Shown here piece by piece: positions 15,690-33,865 of a DNA stretch of 64,000 bases. The position numbers and the translations under genes were made by a program. The DNA lies in contig NZ_JAKVIR010000001.1 of NCBI RefSeq assembly GCF_022601975.1, forward strand, positions 62,001 through 126,000, in the 5' to 3' direction. Under the pieces are notes generated by a model. The model was not told the DNA's origin and did no database searches. It saw nothing but the letters and a program-made list of their open reading frames with translations. The stretch comes from Pontibacter sp. E15-1. GTDB lineage: Bacteria > Bacteroidota > Bacteroidia > Cytophagales > Hymenobacteraceae. Position 1 is the first letter of the stretch. Each line of letters begins with the position of its first letter.

Positions 15690-18092
15690 CTACAGTCCGG
15701 CCCGTTTTGCGGCGATTTTCACTGACAGCGTGGCGAACACGATCACGCTGAGCGAGCTGATGGGCATGAGTATAGCCGAGGCGATGGGGGAAAACAGCCC
15801 CTGCACCGCCAGCGACAAGCCGATGACATTGTACACCAGCGACACGGCAAACGCAGCCAGGATGATCCGCATGCTTGTTTTGGAGAAGCGCAGGAACTTA
15901 CTCAGCCGGTCGAAGGCGGAGGCATCCAGAATCGCGTCGCAGGAGGGCGAGAAGTTGGTGATGCTGTTGGTCAGGGCTATACCGGCATCGCTCTGGCGCA
16001 AGGCCCCGGCGTCGTTCAGCCCGTCACCCACCATCAACACCTTGTGGCGGTGACTTTGGAGTTGCTGTATGTACTCCAGCTTTTGTACCGGGCTCTGACT
16101 GAAATTGAGCGCTGCCTCAGCCCCCAGCAGTTTCTGCAGGCGCGCCCGCTCATGGTCGTTGTCGCCGGAAAGCACCGCAATGCGCTTGTCGCTCAGTTCG
16201 GTCAGGATGCCTTTCAGGCCCTGCCGATACACATTGTAGAAGGTATAATAGCCCAGCACTACACCGTCCACAGCGATGTATACACTCGTTTTCAGGGAAT
16301 CTGAGGTATGGCCCGGCGCAATGCCCAAATAGGCGGCAGACCCGGCGCGGATGAAACTGCCATTCACTTTGCCCGACACCCCTTTGCCAGCATACTCCTG
16401 AAAATCATCCACATCCGTGGTGTCGGCTGGCAGGCTCTGGAAAATACGCTGGCTGAGCGGGTGCGTGGAGTGGCGCAGCACCGATTTTATACCCTGCTCC
16501 TGGGCACTTGTAAGCGCTTTGCCGGTATAGCCCAACTCCGCAGCGCTGGTCTCGGTCAGGGTGCCCGTCTTGTCGAAAACAACGGTGTCGATGCTGGCGA
16601 GCGCCTCTACCACCGCCGTGTTTTTCAGGTAAAACTTGTTCTTGCCGAACACCCGCAGGGTATGGCCGTGCACAAAAGGCGCGGCCAGCGACAGCGCGCA
16701 CGGGCAGGCGATGATCAGCACTGAGGTAAAGGATTTCATGGCCATGTTCAGGTCGCGCGGCACCCAGTAGGCAAGCGCCCCGGCGGCAATCAGCAGCGTG
16801 GCGATGATAAACCACTTGCCCGCCACGTTGGAATAGGTGCTCACGCGCTGCTCCTCGTTCTTGGAGAACACGCTGTCGTTCCACAGCTGGGTCAGGTAAC
16901 TCTGCGAGACTTCCTTTACCACTTCCAGCTCGATGCTCTCCCCCACCTGCCGTCCGCCGGCGTAAATCACCTCGCCCGCCACCATCTCCACGGGTTCCGA
17001 CTCGCCGCTCACAAAGCTATAGTCAATCCGGGCGGAGCCGCACAGCAAGAGGGCATCTGCCGGTAGCAGCTCCTGGTTGCGGATCCTGACGCGGTCGCCC
17101 ACCTTCAGGTTCCGAACCGCTACAGCAGCTTCCGCCTCATCGCGCAGCACCGTTACCGATACCGGAAAATAGGCGGTATAATCTCTGTCGAAGGAAAGCG
17201 TGTCGTAGGTTTTCTGCTGGAAGTATTTGCCAATCAGCATAAAGAACACCAGGCCAGTGAAGGAGTCGAAATAGCCCGGGCCGGTACCGGTAACGACCTG
17301 ATAGAAGCTGACTGTAAAAAGCGCCAGCAGGCCGGTGGCAATGGGCACGTCTATGTTCACCATCCGCTGTTTTATACCCCCCACCGCCGAAGTAAAGAAA
17401 CCACGCGCACTGTACAGGAGCACCGGCAGCGAGAGCAGCAGGCTCAAATATCCGAAAAAGGTGCCGTATGTGCGCTGCAGCCCGTCTGTCACGGAGAGGT
17501 ACTCCGGGAAAGCCAGCAGCATCACGTTCCCGAAACAAAAGCCCGCGATTCCCAGCTTGTACAGGAGCGTGCGATTCGGCTTGCTGGTCTTCCTGCCATC
17601 TGTGTCGGCCAGGGTAATTTCCGGCTCATAGCCGATCCGGGCCAGGAGCGCCACGACCTCGCGCAGCGTGGTTTGCTGGTGCAGAAAAGTGAGCGAGATC
17701 TCCTTGCGCATGAAATTTACCCGAGACTCTGAAATACCCGGGTTCAGCCTGAAAAGGTTTTCCAGCAGCCAGATGCAGGAGCTGCAATGCATCTGGGGCA
17801 CGTGAAAGGTGAGCTTGCAGATGGAGTCGTTGCGGAAATTGATCAACTGGGCGGCCACGCCGGCATCATCGAGGTAAGCAAAGCGGGCTTCCTGCTGTAG
17901 GGCTTTGCCCGTTATGCCCGGGTTTTGCTCCAGGGTATAATAGGTGCAGAGGTTGTTGTCCTCCAGCAGTTCGTAAACGGTTTTGCAACCGGCACAGCAA
18001 AAGGATTTCCCGTGTGCGAGTATCAGTTCATCAACGCATTCATCCCCGCAATGATAGCAGTACTGAACATCGGTTAGAAGTGCGGTTTCCAT
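15690..18092 (-). CDS. ccoI: CcoI-type copper-transporting P-type ATPase
   Basis: 800 residues. N-terminal Cys cluster (CYHCGDEC, then CCAGC, residues about 12-36) is the P-type ATPase-associated metal-binding region; an HMA-like domain with MHCSSC follows near residue 105. The membrane motif CPCALSLAAPF precedes the phosphorylation site DKTGTLTE; GDGLNDAG completes the ATP-binding region. CcoI/FixI exports Cu(I) for assembly of cbb3 oxidase rather than for copper resistance. First gene of a ccoI-ccoS pair with a tandem FNR-like site 56 bp upstream. It differs clearly from the second P1B ATPase at 21613. Confidence 0.94.
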   Translation of the reverse strand: METALLTDVQYCYHCGDECVDELILAHGKSFCCAGCKTVYELLEDNNLCTYYTLEQNPGITGKALQQEARFAYLDDAGVAAQLINFRNDSICKLTFHVPQMHCSSCIWLLENLFRLNPGISESRVNFMRKEISLTFLHQQTTLREVVALLARIGYEPEITLADTDGRKTSKPNRTLLYKLGIAGFCFGNVMLLAFPEYLSVTDGLQRTYGTFFGYLSLLLSLPVLLYSARGFFTSAVGGIKQRMVNIDVPIATGLLALFTVSFYQVVTGTGPGYFDSFTGLVFFMLIGKYFQQKTYDTLSFDRDYTAYFPVSVTVLRDEAEAAVAVRNLKVGDRVRIRNQELLPADALLLCGSARIDYSFVSGESEPVEMVAGEVIYAGGRQVGESIELEVVKEVSQSYLTQLWNDSVFSKNEEQRVSTYSNVAGKWFIIATLLIAAGALAYWVPRDLNMAMKSFTSVLIIACPCALSLAAPFVHGHTLRVFGKNKFYLKNTAVVEALASIDTVVFDKTGTLTETSAAELGYTGKALTSAQEQGIKSVLRHSTHPLSQRIFQSLPADTTDVDDFQEYAGKGVSGKVNGSFIRAGSAAYLGIAPGHTSDSLKTSVYIAVDGVVLGYYTFYNVYRQGLKGILTELSDKRIAVLSGDNDHERARLQKLLGAEAALNFSQSPVQKLEYIQQLQSHRHKVLMVGDGLNDAGALRQSDAGIALTNSITNFSPSCDAILDASAFDRLSKFLRFSKTSMRIILAAFAVSLVYNVIGLSLAVQGLFSPIASAILMPISSLSVIVFATLSVKIAAKRAGL

Positions 18093-19704: not shown

Positions 19705-20117
19705 CTTTTCTGATAATCCTGGTTCCGGATGGGTTGGCTGGTGGGTTGGCTAACCAGGCTCTGCTACGGCCTAAGTTTATATCTCATACCTACCTCATAC
19801 CTACTCAGCGTCAAGAGCGACACACCGAAGTATGCACCGCCTTATGTATTACAGCGTAGCTGCTGAATCAGCCCAGTATTTTGGCCCCGGTTCATTAGGC
19901 AGATGGCCTTTTTATACTGAAGATGACTGGTGAGGTAGCTACAACTCGCATAAAACGGGTCGTGTAGGTTTTTTTTCTGTAATAAATAAATAAATTTTTG
20001 CCTCCCCCCCTGGTGGTTGATGTACATTGCTTAGAACCATTAAATAAGGCACGGTTTGTTTTCATACAGTGGTTTAGCTGCTGTGCCTGCAGGATTTTAT
20101 TTAAAAATTATAAAACT
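19705..20117. other. Intergenic region between hemN and the Cys-rich gene
   Basis: This divergent gap carries the hemN regulatory sites on its left and presumably the promoter of the Cys-rich gene on its right. I see an AT-rich stretch (AATAAATAAATAAATT near 19980) but no convincing TAnnTTTG box and no gene. Confidence 0.3.
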
Positions 20118-20441
20118 ATGAAGAAGGTCAGCAAAGAGATGCAAGCGTGCATCGACGCATGTTACCGCTCCGTTACAGCCGCCAAAGTCTGCTTAGACGT
20201 ACATATGGGGGAGCCAGATATGAAAAAATGTCACCAGCTCTGCCTGGATGCCATTGATATGGCCACAGCCTGTGCCAGCATGTGCGCAGCTAGTTCCGAC
20301 TACGTGAGACAGGTTGGCAAGCTGTGCGCCCAGGTGTGCAGCGATTGTGCAGATGCCTGTGCCAAGTTCGACAGTGAAGTGTGCCAGGAGTGTGCCAAGG
20401 CATGCCGCGACTGTGCCGATAAATGCGGCATGCTGGCGTAG
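20118..20441 (+). CDS. Four-helix Cys-rich copper-binding protein (Csp/DUF326-like)
   Basis: 107 residues containing 16 cysteines in helical heptad-like spacing (CIDACYRSVTAAKVC, CHQLC, CASMC, CAQVCSDCADAC, CQECAKACRDCADKC). This is the DUF326/PF03860 pattern; characterised Csp proteins are four-helix bundles that store many Cu(I) ions inside the bundle. No signal peptide is visible, so a cytosolic store is likely. The ATG is at 20118; the open frame extends upstream without an obvious start. It precedes a CsoR-type regulator gene and a metal ATPase on the same strand, with a MITE inserted after it. Confidence 0.9.
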   Translation: MKKVSKEMQACIDACYRSVTAAKVCLDVHMGEPDMKKCHQLCLDAIDMATACASMCAASSDYVRQVGKLCAQVCSDCADACAKFDSEVCQECAKACRDCADKCGMLA

Positions 20442-20461
20442 GCGCCTTATAGTCTGATTAA

Positions 20462-20622
20462 GAGCGTGCTTAAAATTCATCTTTTGGGCTGCAAACTGTC
20501 CATCGAGGAATCTGACTTAACCTTTTTAGCGCCCCATAGCGTTGCTATTCGGCTCAAATAACGCTTCGCCAGAAACCTTCCTGAACGTTTTTTGCTTTCA
20601 AACACGCAAAGCATACCTGCTC
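20462..20622 (+). repeat. 161-bp MITE, copy 2, with TAA target duplication
   Basis: Begins GAGCGTGCTTAAAATTCAT and ends GCATACCTGCTC, flanked by TAA at 20459-20461 and 20623-20625. It aligns over its whole length with 15138-15298 in reverse orientation. TNA-type duplications fit IS5-family (IS427/IS1031-type) transposition. It separates the Cys-rich gene from the regulator gene and could supply a terminator or promoter (inference). Confidence 0.75.
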
Positions 20623-20695
20623 TAAACATGAAAGACCTGGCAAACTGTGCCGGGTCTTTTCTGTAAACTTGTTTAGCCAAAATTAACGAAGCTTC

Positions 20696-21070
20696 ATGTT
20701 ACCCAAAGATTTAACCAGAGACATAAAGAACCGCCTGAAAAGTATAAGCGGGCAGGTAGACGGTATCACCAGAATGCTGGATGAGGACAAATCACCCAAA
20801 GCCATACTCCTGCAGCTGAAGTCGGTGGAGAGCGCACTGCAGAAAGCGCACCACCTGCTGCTGGACGAGGTGTACCGAAAGACACTAGCCATCCAGATCG
20901 TAAATGCGCGGAACTCCTGCCCGGGCGACTGCGGCAACGAAGACAAGATTGAGGCGCTCCGGCGACAGTTCCCCGACCTGAAACTGGAAGAACTGACGCT
21001 TAAGATGGAGGAGCTAGAGGAACTTACCCAGTGGCTGGAGAAGTACCTGAAAGAAGAAAAAAAAGTATAG
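20696..21070 (+). CDS. CsoR/FrmR-family metal-sensing regulator, atypical ligands
   Basis: 124 residues, helical CsoR/RcnR/FrmR family (PF02583): RLKSISGQVDGITRMLDEDK is the family signature. In copper-type CsoR the ligands are a Cys after EDKY, then His and Cys in DEHLSHC. Here those positions read EDKSP and DEVYRKT, so all three are absent. Candidates instead are His52-His53 and Cys75/Cys79 (CPGDC) in a C-terminal stretch; the last 35 residues are an acidic coiled coil not found in short CsoR proteins. It probably represses the downstream operon and senses something other than classical Cu(I). Followed after 1 bp by a membrane-protein gene. Confidence 0.88.
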   Translation: MLPKDLTRDIKNRLKSISGQVDGITRMLDEDKSPKAILLQLKSVESALQKAHHLLLDEVYRKTLAIQIVNARNSCPGDCGNEDKIEALRRQFPDLKLEELTLKMEELEELTQWLEKYLKEEKKV

Positions 21071-21071
21071 G

Positions 21072-21509
21072 GTGCGCACTCCGCAGAGAAAAGAGCTCCT
21101 GGCGATCGTGCTATTGGCGTTCCCCCTTAACTTACTTTGGGAAAACCTGCATGCACCACTTTATGAGAATGTCCTCCTCTCCATGCAAAAGTTTATGCTA
21201 CTATGCACGCTAGCTGATATCCTGATTACGCTGCTGATCTATGCTTTTGTTGGCCTCCTGCTGCAGGAACCGCGTTGGCTGAGCAAAATGAGCTGGCGGA
21301 AAGTGCTCCTTGCCTTGTCGGTGAGTATGGTAACGGCTGTCACCATGGAGAAAATCCCCTTGCTCCTTGGCTGGTGGGGCTATAGTGCCCGCATGCCACT
21401 GCTGCCATGGGTACAGGTAGGGCTCACACCGTTCCTGCAGATCAGCTTGTTGCCTCTGCTCACTTTATTGCTTGGCTCTTTTTTCTCTACTTTTGGAAAA
21501 CGAGGCTAA
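21072..21509 (+). CDS. Unrecognised four-helix membrane protein
   Basis: 145 residues, GTG start one base after the regulator's stop codon, so almost certainly co-translated. About four hydrophobic segments. Features that look conserved in character are LLWENLHAPLY in the first helix, MEKIPLLLGWWGYSARMP, and GLTPFLQI near the end; Glu, His and Met residues within or near membrane could bind a metal. I do not recognise the family. Given its place between a metal regulator and a metal ATPase, a part in metal transport or sensing is likely, but this is context only. Confidence 0.75.
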   Translation: MRTPQRKELLAIVLLAFPLNLLWENLHAPLYENVLLSMQKFMLLCTLADILITLLIYAFVGLLLQEPRWLSKMSWRKVLLALSVSMVTAVTMEKIPLLLGWWGYSARMPLLPWVQVGLTPFLQISLLPLLTLLLGSFFSTFGKRG

Positions 21510-21612
21510 ATTCAATTTGCACACCCCCCTCCCCTAGGCCATAACTTTCGGCACAATCCCAACCTCGGATTATCGCGCATCACATAAAATTTAAAAACCA
21601 ACCTTTATCAAG

Positions 21613-24009
21613 ATGGCAACAGAAACAATTCAGCTGAAAGTCTCCGGGCTGATGTGCTCGTTCTGCACCATGAGCGTAGAGACTGCCTTAAAACGTTATG
21701 CAGGCATAAAGAGTGTGATGGTTAACCTGGTGCATGGCATTGTGCTGGTGGAGGCCGACACTGCGCAGATAACCAGAGAGCAGCTAACCGAAGCCGTAGA
21801 GCGGCTAGGTTACAGTGTGTCCAGCTCGGAGGTGCAGCAGTACAAGGCCGATGAAGATTTGTTTCAGGTCATTAAGCAGCGGGGCGCTATCGGCATGGCA
21901 CTTTCCATCGTGGATCTGCTGATTGACCCGATCAATATTTTTGGCTTGCCAGCGCTATACAGAGCCTGGTTTAGTTTTGGAGTAGCGCTAACGGTGCTGT
22001 TGTGGGTGGGGTATCCCATCCTTCGCAAAACCATAATGGCCATTAGCCAGCGGGTGATCAATGCCAATGTGTTGCTATCGGCTGGCGCCTGGGGCTCATT
22101 CATCATAGGAACGCTCTCCTTGTTCAGTCCTGACTGGCCAAACTTCCTTCCCGTTGCCTCATGGCTCATGTCGCTGCACCTTTTCTTTGCCTACTTCAAG
22201 TTAAATACGCGCAAGAAAGCATCTGAGGCGGTGCGGAAGCTCCTGTCATTGCAACCTGCCCGGGCAAGGGTGCTGCGTGGAAACCAGTTTGTAGACGTAC
22301 TGACCAAAGATGTTTTGATGGAGGAAGTGGTAGAGGTGCGGCCTGGTGAGCGGATATCACTTGACGGGGAAGTGATCCAGGGTATAGCCAGTGTCGATGA
22401 GTCCAGCTTTACCGGCGAATCTGTGCCTGTCACGAAGGAAAAGGGCAGCGCGGTGATAGGAGGCACACTGAATCTGGACGGAGCCTTGCAGGTAAGGGTA
22501 TCCAAAACCGGGGAAGACAGCTTCCTGAGCCAGATTGTCAGGCTGATGAGTTCAATTTCCGAGCGTAAGCCGCCGATAGAACTACTCGCAGACCGCTTGA
22601 TGAACTATTACGGGCCGGTGGTCTTTATCGTCGCCGGGCTGTCTTTCGCAGCATGGGCTATCTTCACGGGTAATTACACCCAGGCCACGTTGGCACTGAT
22701 CACGACGATCATCATGGGCTACCCTTGTGCACTGGGTATCACAACGCCAATGCTGGCGGCCATTGCAGGAGGCAAAGGTATTTCGATTGGCCTTTTGGTG
22801 AAAGCGAGTGAGGTGTTTTATGGGCTCTCTACGGTAAACACAGTCATATTCGACAAAACCGGCACACTCACCTATGGGAAACCCACTGTAACAAATGTAG
22901 AGACCTTTGGCCAAGAGCGGCTTGAAGTGCTCTCTTTATTGGCGGCAGTGGAGAGTAAGTCAGAACACCCTATTGGACAATCTATTGCTTTTTATGCCCA
23001 GCGCGAAGGTGCAACCAGCCGCGAAGTAGAGAATTTCAGGGCTGTTGCCGGGAAAGGAGTGAAAGCGACCTATCTGGGCGACGAAATACTTGCCGGAAAA
23101 CCTTCTTTTCTGCTTGAAAATGGCATGCGGCTGCCAGAACAAGTCATGAACCGGATTGTCAGTCTTAGTGCCGAAGGCAAGACGGTGATAGGCATTACGA
23201 TGCGGGAAAGCATCATGTGTATTATTGCGCTCCAGGACACCCCTCGGCGAGGTGCAGCGCGGGCTGTTCAGAAGCTTAATCAGAATGGCATCCATACGGT
23301 AATGCTTACCGGTGACGCGCAGGCCGTTGCCAGCGCCGTTGCCCAGGAGATTGGTATCCGGGAAGTGAAAGCAGAACTGCTGCCAACCGATAAAGTGGCG
23401 GCCATCACTAGCCTTCAGCAGCAAGGCAGAAGAGTGGCCATGGTGGGAGACGGCATAAACGACGCCCCTGCCCTGGCCCAAGCTGACGTGGGCATTGCCA
23501 TCGCAGCAGGAACTGACGTGGCAATTGAGTCGGCAGGAGTTATCCTGATAGGGGATAAGCTAATTGACGTGGTAAATGCCCTAACGCTAGGGAAAGCCAG
23601 CTACCGCACCATGACCGGGAACGTGATCGTGGCGGTGCTTTTTAACGTGGTGGGCATGCTGCTGGCAGCCTTCGGCCTTATTACTCCACTACTGGCCATT
23701 GCCGTGATGATCGTAAGTATATTTGCCATCCTGCTGAACACTCTTCGCATCCGCAGCATTAAACTGGAAAAAGCGGAGGAGACCAGTTCGGAGGCCTTGG
23801 CTGAGGCGGTGTACAAAATTCCCGACATGGTGTGCGAAGGCTGCGCAGGAGCCGTTGCTGCCTGCCTGAAAGAACTGCGTGGCGTAAAGCGTATAAAGCC
23901 GAAAGTAACCCGGAAAGAGGTATACATCAGCTATGAACCCGCAAAAGTGACACCGGAGCAATTGAAAAACGCCATTACCACCGCGGGGTTTACAGCCCTG
24001 GAGGCTTAG
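21613..24009 (+). CDS. P1B-type heavy-metal ATPase with YPC motif and two HMA domains
   Basis: 798 residues. N-terminal HMA domain with GLMCSFC (Cys15, Cys18); actuator motif TGES; membrane metal-site motif GYPCALG (Tyr370-Pro-Cys372) where copper pumps have CPC; phosphorylation site DKTGTLT (Asp414); hinge GDGINDAPA; and a second HMA domain at the extreme C-terminus (MVCEGC, Cys741 and Cys744). The Tyr replacement removes one of the two invariant Cu(I) cysteines, and a C-terminal HMA is unusual. It is an exporter of a soft metal, but Cu(I) is not assured; Hg(II) or another thiol-seeking ion is possible. Downstream are an HMA lipoprotein, a CcdA-like protein and a thioredoxin-like protein. 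Confidence 0.93.
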   Translation: MATETIQLKVSGLMCSFCTMSVETALKRYAGIKSVMVNLVHGIVLVEADTAQITREQLTEAVERLGYSVSSSEVQQYKADEDLFQVIKQRGAIGMALSIVDLLIDPINIFGLPALYRAWFSFGVALTVLLWVGYPILRKTIMAISQRVINANVLLSAGAWGSFIIGTLSLFSPDWPNFLPVASWLMSLHLFFAYFKLNTRKKASEAVRKLLSLQPARARVLRGNQFVDVLTKDVLMEEVVEVRPGERISLDGEVIQGIASVDESSFTGESVPVTKEKGSAVIGGTLNLDGALQVRVSKTGEDSFLSQIVRLMSSISERKPPIELLADRLMNYYGPVVFIVAGLSFAAWAIFTGNYTQATLALITTIIMGYPCALGITTPMLAAIAGGKGISIGLLVKASEVFYGLSTVNTVIFDKTGTLTYGKPTVTNVETFGQERLEVLSLLAAVESKSEHPIGQSIAFYAQREGATSREVENFRAVAGKGVKATYLGDEILAGKPSFLLENGMRLPEQVMNRIVSLSAEGKTVIGITMRESIMCIIALQDTPRRGAARAVQKLNQNGIHTVMLTGDAQAVASAVAQEIGIREVKAELLPTDKVAAITSLQQQGRRVAMVGDGINDAPALAQADVGIAIAAGTDVAIESAGVILIGDKLIDVVNALTLGKASYRTMTGNVIVAVLFNVVGMLLAAFGLITPLLAIAVMIVSIFAILLNTLRIRSIKLEKAEETSSEALAEAVYKIPDMVCEGCAGAVAACLKELRGVKRIKPKVTRKEVYISYEPAKVTPEQLKNAITTAGFTALEA

Positions 24010-24043
24010 TCCATGTATAAAACTAACCAAAACCAGTTTGCAG

Positions 24044-24418
24044 ATGAAATTAATAACGCAAGTGAGTTCTTTTAGTAGCAAAGTGGCGGTTGTGCCACTA
24101 GTATTGCTGGCTGTTATGCTTGGGGGTTGCTCAGACCCAGAGCAAGTGCCGGGCGCGGCAACGCAGGATCTTTCTGCCTCCAAACTTAAACGTACCACTA
24201 TACCCATTGAGGGGATGACCTGCAATGCCTGCGTGGCCAGTGTCAAGAGCAAGCTTAAATCTTTAGAGGGCGTGCAGCAAATTGAGGTGAGCCTGCAGCA
24301 CCGTAACGTGACCTTTAGCTACCAACCGTCCGAATTGACGCCAAGTCAGGTGCAGCAGGCGATAAATGAGATCGGGTACAAGGCCGGCACACCTATAGAG
24401 GAAGGAGCCAAGCAGTGA
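24044..24418 (+). CDS. HMA-domain lipoprotein (MerP-like)
   Basis: 124 residues: lipoprotein signal with LGGC, short linker, then one HMA domain with IEGMTCNAC. It would be a periplasmic, lipid-anchored metal carrier, handing a soft metal to or from the ATPase or the next membrane protein. The ATG at 24044 is preferred over an upstream TTG. It overlaps the following GTG start by 4 bp, so the two products are probably made in equal amounts and may work together, as MerP does with MerT (analogy only). Confidence 0.88.
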   Translation: MKLITQVSSFSSKVAVVPLVLLAVMLGGCSDPEQVPGAATQDLSASKLKRTTIPIEGMTCNACVASVKSKLKSLEGVQQIEVSLQHRNVTFSYQPSELTPSQVQQAINEIGYKAGTPIEEGAKQ

Positions 24419-25104
24419 CTTTAGAGGACTTCTTTGGCAGTTTCGGGTCGGGCCTATCTGAAGCCTCATTCCTAAGCCTGGGAATTGCGCTGTTGGCAGG
24501 TATAGTATCCAGCGGCGTTTGTCCGTGCACGCTCCCGGTAGGGCTTGGTATGGCAGGACTGGTGAGCAGTAACACGGATGCAAGAAACCAAGGCGGGTTG
24601 CTGATTGCGGTGGCGTTCTTCATGGGCATTCTGGTGAACCTCACGCTGTTGGGTGCGCTTGCCGGAAAGCTTGGCGTGATTCTGACAGAATCTTTTGGTC
24701 GCTATTGGGCCCTGCTGATGGTCTTCGTCTCTCTGATAGCCGCCATAGTCGCTTTCTATGGCCCTCGCCTGCAGGTTAGCCGCCTGGCATCGCTCCGAAA
24801 GCCGGGTATGGGAGGGGCCTTTATGTATGGCTTTATCTTTAGCCTGGGCACCTCTGCCGCGCCGCTTTTGCTGCTGCTTTCCGTTGCGGCAGCCACCGCC
24901 GACCCGTACTACGGCTTATTGCTGGCATTTTTCTTCGGCTTGGGCAGGGGGCTTCCATTTCTATTGGTGGGCCTTTTTGCCGGGGCTGTGTCTCGGTTGG
25001 CGCGGCTATCCTGGCTTAGGCGCATCATTCAGGTTGTCAGCGGCTGTGCGCTGCTCTTTGTGGGGTTCTACTACGGCAAAGTTTTCCTCGATCTGATGCC
25101 TTAG
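24415..25104 (+). CDS. CcdA/DsbD-like membrane protein
   Basis: 229 residues with six predicted helices. First helix region has SSGVCPCTLPVGLG, the proline- and cysteine-containing motif of the CcdA/DsbD transmembrane family, but with CPC. Such proteins move reducing equivalents across the membrane; some relatives move metals. GTG start overlaps the stop of the HMA lipoprotein gene. In the CcdA family a second Cys-Pro motif lies in helix four; here I find only GTSAAPLLL at that place, so the classical two-cysteine relay seems incomplete and metal transport is a fair alternative. Confidence 0.85.
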   Translation: MTLEDFFGSFGSGLSEASFLSLGIALLAGIVSSGVCPCTLPVGLGMAGLVSSNTDARNQGGLLIAVAFFMGILVNLTLLGALAGKLGVILTESFGRYWALLMVFVSLIAAIVAFYGPRLQVSRLASLRKPGMGGAFMYGFIFSLGTSAAPLLLLLSVAAATADPYYGLLLAFFFGLGRGLPFLLVGLFAGAVSRLARLSWLRRIIQVVSGCALLFVGFYYGKVFLDLMP

Positions 25105-25225
25105 GCGTTAAGTCTGCCTGTGTTTATTGATACGGGAGCGTATTTGGAGCCCAAAGCCCCAGGAATAAATCCCGCGCCTTAGCGCAAAAGCTTGTTGTCT
25201 AAAATAAGAGTCTAGTTGAGTCACC

Positions 25226-25262
25226 TTGTTTGCTTCCCCCCCACCCCACTGTTGTATCTTTG
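25226..25262 (+). promoter_or_regulatory. Bacteroidota-type promoter for the thioredoxin-like gene
   Basis: TATCTTTG at 25255-25262 fits the -7 consensus TAnnTTTG, with TTGTTTG at 25226-25232 as the -33 element about 22 bp before. The gene starts 48 bp downstream, so it can be expressed apart from the ATPase operon. Confidence 0.6.
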
Positions 25263-25309
25263 TATTACCCTTGCAAGGAATCAGATGTTAAACTAAAAGA
25301 TAATAAGGT

Positions 25310-25579
25310 ATGAAACGCAAAGTAGAAATTTTCACGGCTGGTTGCCCTGTGTGTGAGCCAGTTGTACAAATGGTAAAAGACCTGACATGCGACAGCTGCG
25401 ATGTCACCGTTTATAACATGGCAGAAATGTGCGACGATAAGTCCTGCCTGGCCAAAGCGAAAGCGTATGGCGTAGTTAGAATGCCAGCCGTTGCCGTGGA
25501 CGGCAAGCTGCTGAACTGCTGTCAGAATAACGCGATAACAAAAGAAGAGCTGATCAGCGCTGGCATTGGTCAGAACTAG
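25310..25579 (+). CDS. Cys-rich thioredoxin-fold protein
   Basis: 89 residues with thioredoxin-like fold: active-site GCPVC (Cys12, Cys15), cis-proline in MPAVAVDG, no signal peptide. Unusually it has eight cysteines: the active pair, CDSC (27, 30), Cys41 and Cys46 in MCDDKSC, and adjacent Cys70-Cys71. The extra thiols suggest metal or persulfide binding besides disulfide exchange. It is the last gene of the metal island and has its own promoter and a strong terminator. Confidence 0.88.
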   Translation: MKRKVEIFTAGCPVCEPVVQMVKDLTCDSCDVTVYNMAEMCDDKSCLAKAKAYGVVRMPAVAVDGKLLNCCQNNAITKEELISAGIGQN

Positions 25580-25593
25580 CAGAAGTTAATTTA

Positions 25594-25642
25594 AAAAAGC
25601 ACGGCAACGCTCCCATTGTGTGGGAGCGCTGCCGTGCTTTTA
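25594..25642 (+). terminator. Rho-independent terminator of the metal island
   Basis: A stem of about 20 bp with one mismatch (AAAGCACGGCAACGCTCCCA paired with 25621-25640) around a 5-base loop, ending in CTTTTAA. It starts 15 bp after the stop codon of the thioredoxin-like gene. Confidence 0.85.
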
Positions 25643-33687: not shown

Positions 33688-33865
33688 TCTTTATTTTTAT
33701 ATAAAAAAACTATTTATTGTTAAGAAACCCGTCAAATAGTTCTATTGTTTTTTCTGTGTTATCAACCATACCATATTAATTTAAAGTGGGGGCGGGCAGC
33801 ATGGCAGCAAACGTACTTGGCTTTGCCGTGGTGTAGCTATAATAAAGATGTGGTTGTAGCAAGTT

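Follow-up and report, generated by a model that had tools for sequence, protein, structure and literature searches.

The window analysed here, a 64-kb stretch of the genome of Pontibacter sp. E15-1 (hereafter the host), contains an island of seven genes at positions 20118-25579, all on the plus strand, delineated from the open reading frames of the window. The island encodes a P1B-type heavy-metal ATPase, in which the usual CPC motif of transmembrane helix (TM) 4 is replaced by YPC, together with a CsoR-family repressor and several cysteine-rich or thioredoxin-like (Trx) proteins. The seven genes and the particular residues that a sequence-only reading had claimed for them are all present. The features of the island are as follows:

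19997..20029, plus strand: C-tract promoter-like site 5′ of the Csp gene (TTTG-N22-TACATTG, C7 in the spacer)
20118..20441, plus strand: four-helix protein with 16 cysteines, DUF326 / cytosolic copper storage protein (Csp)-like, 107 amino acids (PF03860)
20696..21070, plus strand: CsoR-family repressor (PF02583) without the C36/H61/C65 ligands, with CPGDC (C75, C79) instead
20918..20932, plus strand: CPGDC codons of the CsoR-family repressor (counted on the translation)
21072..21509, plus strand: membrane protein of 145 amino acids, GTG start, no named family (no Pfam or NCBIfam match)
21516..21548, plus strand: C-tract promoter-like site 5′ of the ATPase gene (TTTG-N22-TAACTTT, C6 in the spacer)
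21613..24009, plus strand: YPC-clade P1B ATPase with N- and C-terminal HMA domains (family models, motif reading, tree)
22720..22728, plus strand: YPC codons of the ATPase, residues 370-372 (motif reading)
24044..24418, plus strand: HMA lipoprotein, MerP/CopZ-like domain (domain match; lipobox LGGC read from the sequence)
24415..25104, plus strand: CcdA/DsbD_TM-like membrane protein, CPC (C36, C38) in the first helix, no cysteine at the second redox position (domain match, alignment)
25229..25261, plus strand: C-tract promoter-like site 5′ of the thioredoxin-fold gene (TTTG-N22-TATCTTT, C7 in the spacer)
25310..25579, plus strand: thioredoxin-fold protein with 8 cysteines, 89 amino acids, GCPVC active-site motif followed by CxxC and CC (weak family match, cysteine count)
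25596..25640, no strand assigned: terminator-like hairpin of 20 pairs that closes the island (scored on the minus strand; the hairpin is symmetric)

The genes of the HMA lipoprotein and of the CcdA-like protein overlap by 4 bases, and a gap of 205 bases separates the latter from the thioredoxin-fold gene.

The YPC ATPase and its clade

We compared the ATPase with a set of 80 P1B sequences from the fetched loci, from which near-identical copies had been removed. YPC is found in all 25 members of the clade to which the window pump belongs, and the other 55 sequences carry CPC (40), CPH (9), SPC (5) or CPG (1) at the same place. In the tree of these 80 sequences, the YPC pumps form one side of a branch with SH-aLRT support of 100, which is still 95 after dropping the columns of TM4, TM7, TM8 and the N-terminal HMA domain and one long-branch row (79 rows); both trees are quick searches without bootstrap, for which the program warned of long branches. 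Members of the clade occur in Bacteroidota, Nitrospirota, Bacillota, Pseudomonadota, Deinococcota and haloarchaea, i.e., in six phyla.

The P1B-1 Cu(I) ATPases are characterized by YN in TM7 and MxxSS in TM8. In the YPC pumps, the TM7 aromatic residue is F (FN) in 25/25, as compared with Y in 27/40 CPC and 9/9 CPH pumps, and the second TM8 serine is replaced by V, I or L (MxxS[VIL]) in 25/25, as compared with S in 27/40 CPC pumps. The first HMA motif is CSFC or CSLC in all 25 YPC pumps and in none of the 40 CPC rows, and a C-terminal CxxC (HMA) motif is present in 12 of the 25. The YPC pumps thus differ from CopA-type P1B-1 Cu(I)/Ag(I) ATPases at TM4, TM7, TM8, the first HMA domain and, for about half of them, the C-terminus; they share with CopA the HMA-P1B architecture, the DKTGT motif, the TM7 asparagine, the TM8 methionine and the first TM8 serine, the last three retained in 25/25. 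They resemble ZntA-type Zn/Cd/Pb/Hg ATPases as soft-metal P1B pumps, one NCBI model being named for zinc, cadmium, mercury and lead; unlike the YPC pumps, the 13 pumps without YN/MxxS that we take to be ZntA-like have CPC and are placed elsewhere in the tree. Judged by the alignment and the tree, the window pump is a member of a clade with a fixed multi-site signature and not a one-off. This clade is apparently an undescribed branch of heavy-metal ATPases: no paper recognised as describing it was found in the open-access PMC literature searched.

Genomic neighbourhoods and spread of the YPC pumps

As a same-genome control, the P1B places detected at E ≤ 1e-60 were listed in 12 Bacteroidota genomes with a YPC pump (68 places, 12 YPC and 56 others). 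The tally comprises 67 pumps (12 YPC, 55 others), since one place (G000:C42:6261) was merged with its neighbour, another (G353:C7:37177) had no readable motif and the FixI-like pump of the window, described below, was added. Mer-type genes (encoding MerT, MerA or a GDCCVxC protein) lie within 8 kb of 9/12 YPC pumps vs 4/55 other pumps, and within 6 kb of 5/12 vs 3/55; for MerT or MerA alone within 8 kb, the counts are 8/12 vs 3/55. Less than 8 kb was available on one side of one YPC pump and of nine others, which introduces a slight bias toward the YPC pumps in these counts. CusA or multicopper oxidase genes are not enriched at the YPC pumps (4/12 vs 23/55 within 8 kb). Fisher's test gives p = 3e-6 for the mer-type genes at 8 kb with four near-copy Hymenobacter plasmids counted separately; when these are merged into one unit the YPC count becomes 6/9, and the 12 genomes are related, both of which reduce the weight of this association.

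Outside Bacteroidota, 15 YPC loci were picked for taxonomic spread, leaving out the near-copies L034, L035 and L090. An annotated mer gene is present in the fetched stretch of 11/15, an uncontrolled count for which 8/12 is a fairer figure because the four haloarchaeal loci are much alike; the four loci without one are L067, L072, L089 and L092. Counted by phylum, YPC pumps are mer-linked in five of six, the Deinococcus locus alone being without a mer gene. In Candidatus Manganitrophus plasmids, an ATPase 67% identical to the window pump over its length is located directly 3′ of merR, with merA divergent; the MerR protein is narrowly above the NCBI MerR model cut-off (151.8 vs 150.85) and MerA is above its own (530.7 vs 454.45). 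Cytobacillus firmus has the row CsoR-Trx-HMA-CcdA-HMA-YPC ATPase, followed two genes further by merR1 with merT, merP and merA. Afipia and Nitrobacter have a single row, HMA-ATPase-MFS-MerR-family-Trx-CcdA-MerT-MerP or cation transporter, with merT downstream of the pump. In Methylobacterium, the row MerR-family-ATPase-HMA-CcdA is followed about 6 kb further by merT, merP, merF, merA and merB, and in Cupriavidus merR-T-P-A comes after the YPC row and copper genes flank the row on its other side. In haloarchaea, merA lies upstream of the YPC pump with one to three genes between them. The MerR-family regulator upstream of the Methylobacterium pump (L065:4475-5155) is fused to a C-terminal HMA domain. 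A Natrarchaeobaculum locus without mer genes (L098), considered as a YPC counter-example, was dropped once its motif proved to be CPC.

The pump (E ≤ 1e-190) is present in 9/204 genomes of the family, the host included, and in the host alone within a sample of 395 Bacteroidota genomes. A DNA pattern for the YPC motif has matches in 14/395 of these genomes, with just four matches, that of the window included, located in P1B ATPases. Several YPC pump copies are plasmid-borne, and the module is patchy and probably mobile. Such a distribution would also fit a loose gathering of metal-resistance genes that are chance neighbours on a mobile island and do not form one system. The relatives are often carried by plasmids with ars and RND genes, the Csp, Trx and 145-residue proteins are variably present, and in one locus (L053) CsoR and Trx persist with only a fragment of the pump gene next to them. 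However, a search for the gene order in other Bacteroidota, foreseen in the sequence-only reading, found the pump-HMA-CcdA order in 10/10 close loci with a whole pump gene (with an MFS gene intervening in five of them), and it is kept in Methylobacterium as well; the CsoR gene lies within 6 kb of the Trx gene in 21/21 Bacteroidota loci, and the three promoter-like sites of the island share one exact 22-base C-tract layout. We therefore regard chance assembly as the least probable of the explanations weighed here.

The host genome encodes two MerTP and two MerA proteins above cut-off, all away from the island; one MerTP gene is about 71 kb distant on the same contig. Glutathione-reductase/MerA-like proteins are encoded near both MerTP genes. 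Similar FAD oxidoreductase genes are found at L052:10645-11985 and L057:11098-12429, near a CsoR-Trx pair and ArsR-MerTP-GDCCVxC genes. The island itself differs from mer operons in having no MerA, MerT, MerP or MerR and a regulator of the CsoR type; the likeness to these operons (MerR, MerT, MerP, MerA) resides in the neighbourhood of its relatives.

The genes flanking the island were not counted in it. Just upstream, on the opposite strand, are a P1B ATPase gene with an ATPase-cat_bd domain (window 15690-18092), presumably FixI/CcoI-like, and an adjoining radical SAM gene that we take to be HemN-like. The downstream neighbour encodes a beta-lactamase-family (PF00144) protein.

Regulator, membrane protein and thiol-rich proteins

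The island regulator resembles CsoR/CstR/RcnR repressors in its PF02583 match and differs from them in that the ligand set is replaced by CxGxC. In an alignment with Mycobacterium tuberculosis CsoR (2hh7), the copper ligand positions, which we take to be C36, H61 and C65, correspond to P34, V59 and T63. A CxG[DN]C motif is present in the aligned part of CsoR in 24/24 loci (the window and some near-copies included), and its cysteines are the sole ones of that part in 23/24. CsoR of Cytobacillus firmus, unlike that of the window, retains the classic cysteine positions. The one other PF02583 match of the host is on contig C27 (L046:6756-7817), where a second CsoR-Trx-Csp set is accompanied by an RND gene and by a gene related to that of the 145-residue membrane protein; C-tract sites precede both csoR and trx in this set.

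Bacteroides-type promoters have a -33/-7 layout (TAnnTTTG), and the C-tract sites of the island fit this layout. Each consists of TTTG, exactly 22 bases with a run of C6-C7, and TAnnTT, and they precede csp, the ATPase gene and trx. The pattern TTTG-N{3,7}-CCCCCC-N{10,18}-TANNTTT, composed after the sites were seen and so not a blind test, has 2 matches in the 5.6-Mb genome, both in the island, and none in the reversed control. A looser form gives one further match in the window at 33811 (C5, N24), which is probably due to chance. The promoter-framed form alone stands out, unlike the simple pattern CCCCCCNCCCC, with 5 matches in the window at one mismatch or less vs 6.77 expected, not above chance; a sigma-70-type scan found 2 sites vs 5.0 expected. 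C-tract sites were also detected in Pontibacter sp. FD36, 5′ of csp and 5′ of a small HMA gene leading to the pump, and were absent from most Hymenobacter loci scanned. Together the three sites suggest a single regulon. In PMC3902906, operators of the CsoR family are described as built on G/C-tracts, a further likeness with the island sites.

Transporters of the CcdA/DsbD type have one redox cysteine in TM1 and one in TM4. The DsbD protein of the host has both at the usual places (C278 and C397), but the CcdA-like protein of the island has C36 and C38 in TM1 and no cysteine in TM4. Methylobacterium and all eight aligned Bacteroidota members show CPC in the first helix and no fourth-helix cysteine. 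The mirror arrangement, CPxC in the fourth helix without a first-helix cysteine, occurs in Afipia, Nitrobacter, Paraburkholderia, Cupriavidus and the second Leisingera copy, and one cysteine per helix is kept in the first Leisingera copy, Marinobacter, Thalassobaculum and Cytobacillus. Since both key cysteines lie in one helix, a metal route is favoured over a disulfide relay: such a pair suggests a metal site better than an inter-helix disulfide exchange. The combination of HMA lipoprotein and membrane protein with a paired-cysteine helix recalls the layout of MerP and MerT. The CcdA-like protein has no match among PDB sequences at E 0.1; a structure model based on three sequences was unusable (pLDDT 43.7, pTM 0.31) and was not used. 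A table in PMC12195606 names TrxA- and CcdA-type actinobacterial proteins as mercury transporters. These mer-annotated proteins are like those of the island in their named protein type; the only pump listed in this table is annotated as a HAD-type lead, cadmium, zinc and mercury ATPase, unlike the YPC pump.

The sequence-only reading had coupled metal export to thiol redox chemistry. In a rival explanation, the island would be a thiol-redox repair or persulfide system, in which electrons flow from the CcdA-like and Trx-fold proteins to the periplasmic HMA lipoprotein, while CsoR reads the thiol state. DsbD_TM and thioredoxin-like folds are indeed adjacent, and the regulator has two cysteines without metal ligands. 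The cysteine arrangement of the CcdA-like protein weakens this proposal, and so does the Trx-fold protein of the closely related Pontibacter sp. FD36, whose first active-site cysteine is replaced by Trp (L029:10414-10674). In addition, cysteines of the CstR type, at positions presumably equivalent to C36 and C65, are absent from the island CsoR, and the seven proteins match no sulfur-oxidation or sulfurtransferase family of Pfam or NCBIfam above cut-off. No support was found for polysulfide sensing, which had also been raised. A Thermus CsoR-family repressor is described as responding to cysteine reactivity in PMC10318464, which fits a redox system; we nevertheless consider such a system improbable, slightly less so than chance assembly.

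The Trx-fold protein has the GCPVC motif and a score of 22.4 bits against PF13192, under the Pfam cut-off of 24.8; it matches 2k8s with E 3.8e-5. Its relatives carry 5 to 8 cysteines, such that the eight-cysteine set of the window protein is not conserved, and the proteobacterial and Cytobacillus proteins are of a plainer type without the extra cysteines. Neighbours of these relatives include MerR-family and MerF genes (Gloeocapsa), MerR-family-MerT-MerP-GDCCVxC genes (Burkholderia) and a MerR-family gene (Halobacillus).

The 145-residue membrane protein matches nothing in Pfam or NCBIfam at E 0.001. A structure model from its own sequence alone is helical and of low confidence (pLDDT 69.5, pTM 0.34), and was not used. 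Relatives of this protein occur in metal loci. One of them adjoins a copper-named P-type ATPase in Pontibacter actiniarum (L168:5950-6417) and another is encoded near the YPC pump of Deinococcus peraridilitoris, in the same region (L067:16679-17200). In Pontibacter sp. FD36 (L029:4920-5430), the corresponding gene seems decayed, between csoR and the pump gene, and adjoins a gene for a small secreted HMA protein. Scans of viral contigs gave no confirmed relative of the 145-residue protein or of the CcdA-like protein.

Candidate substrate and mechanism

From these comparisons, the island could be a soft-metal stress regulon with Hg(II) bound to thiols as its likeliest substrate, an interpretation to which we give an even chance. 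As a single substrate, Hg(II) would be the best candidate at that same level, with Cu(I)/Ag(I) next and distinctly less probable. In the proposed mechanism, at least three promoters would have a C-tract operator between their -33 and -7 elements; the CsoR-type repressor would occupy these operators and be released when the metal, or a metal-thiol adduct, binds at its CxGxC pair. The 16-cysteine four-helix protein and the 8-cysteine thioredoxin-fold protein may hold or shuttle cytosolic metal as thiolates. The YPC ATPase would accept the metal at the CSFC-bearing and the C-terminal HMA domain, and a membrane site with one cysteine in TM4, Phe in place of Tyr and Val/Ile in place of Ser would then conduct it into the periplasm; these residues are observed, and their transport role is putative. 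On the outer face, the HMA lipoprotein and the CcdA-like CPC protein may form a metal relay, with a layout comparable to that of MerP and MerT and not to that of a disulfide relay. P1B pumps are described as exporters in PMC10654040, which makes export the default direction for the YPC pump.

Several results weigh against mercury, beyond the reduced control count. The window pump itself has no mer-type gene within 8 kb, and neither do the YPC pumps of Pontibacter sp. FD36 (G005) and of G353. Metal-resistance genes cluster on mobile DNA generally, and the control set is restricted to Bacteroidota. None of the MerR-family proteins from Methylobacterium, Leisingera, Halobacillus, Gloeocapsa, Burkholderia and Deinococcus reaches the cut-off of the MerR model, and the matches of the ATPase to the MerTP, MerP and UxxU models are all under cut-off. 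An Hg(II) exporter beside an importing MerT would look futile unless each serves a different load.

Other points on this side speak for copper. The island could serve the efflux and storage of Cu(I)/Ag(I) through proteins whose ligand residues have drifted, with Cu(I) pumped by the ATPase, stored by the Csp-like protein and sensed by CsoR via new ligands. The ATPase passes the NCBI copper model TIGR01511, a broad one (426.5 bits, cut-off 397), as well as the CopZ model NF033795 (92.5 vs 91) and TIGR00003 (67 vs 62); it also passes the cadmium-family model TIGR01512 (368.6 bits, cut-off 313.5). Csp proteins bind Cu(I). The Csp-like protein of the island belongs with their four-helix cysteine-rich family: the PDB sequences closest to it are those of cytosolic copper storage proteins (E 1.5e-7), and eight of the nine PDB sequences matched are named copper storage or CSP3, the ninth being uncharacterised. 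It differs from known copper storage proteins in that its gene is set beside a YPC pump. Copper-type genes lie beside YPC pumps in Paraburkholderia, Cupriavidus and Thalassobaculum. Finally, a Cus-type RND gene, its adaptor or a multicopper oxidase is found in 14/21 of the Bacteroidota CsoR-Trx loci vs mer-type matches in 9/21 of the fetched stretches; in these counts the copper-type match of L061 is based on a fragment of 38 residues, L063 and L066 seem to represent one region, and L064, a copy of L029, is left out. Given these proportions and the location of the host C27 set beside an RND gene, the sensor-storage half of the island may serve more than one soft metal, the pump half being more mer-linked.

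Against a copper island stand the changes of the first TM4 cysteine, the TM7 tyrosine and the second TM8 serine in 25/25 YPC pumps (three further positions, as noted above, being kept), the mer-type genes, which are commoner beside YPC pumps than beside other pumps when copper genes are not, the loss of C36/H61/C65 from CsoR and the existence of other CPC and CPH pumps in the host genome. We consider the copper explanation rather unlikely, though ahead of the redox system and of chance assembly. The earlier suggestion of something other than ordinary copper efflux, perhaps for Hg(II), gains from the mer linkage of relatives in several phyla, which in Bacteroidota exceeds the same-genome control, and loses from the copper-type majority at the CsoR-Trx loci and from Cu(I) binding by Csp proteins. 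That every part departs from the copper-resistance standard was an overstatement: the ATPase residues do differ, yet this protein passes both TIGR01511 and TIGR01512, and the Csp-like protein is of the copper storage type.

A broader proposal in favour of mercury, which we put forward tentatively, is that the YPC ATPases could be a separate P1B subfamily exporting Hg(II), with a pump common to bacteria and haloarchaea, and that together with a MerT-like CPC-helix CcdA relay and a CxGxC CsoR sensor they could provide a reductase-independent mercury resistance. The analysis points to a branch of P1B ATPases with its own signature and a likely, assayable substrate, and to CcdA-like proteins whose two cysteines have come to share a helix in either of two ways, as CPC in TM1 or as CPxC in TM4. 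As the window pump passes a model named copper-translocating, its annotation could change. If the substrate is Hg(II), mer loci would gain an export arm that is missing from reductase-based models.

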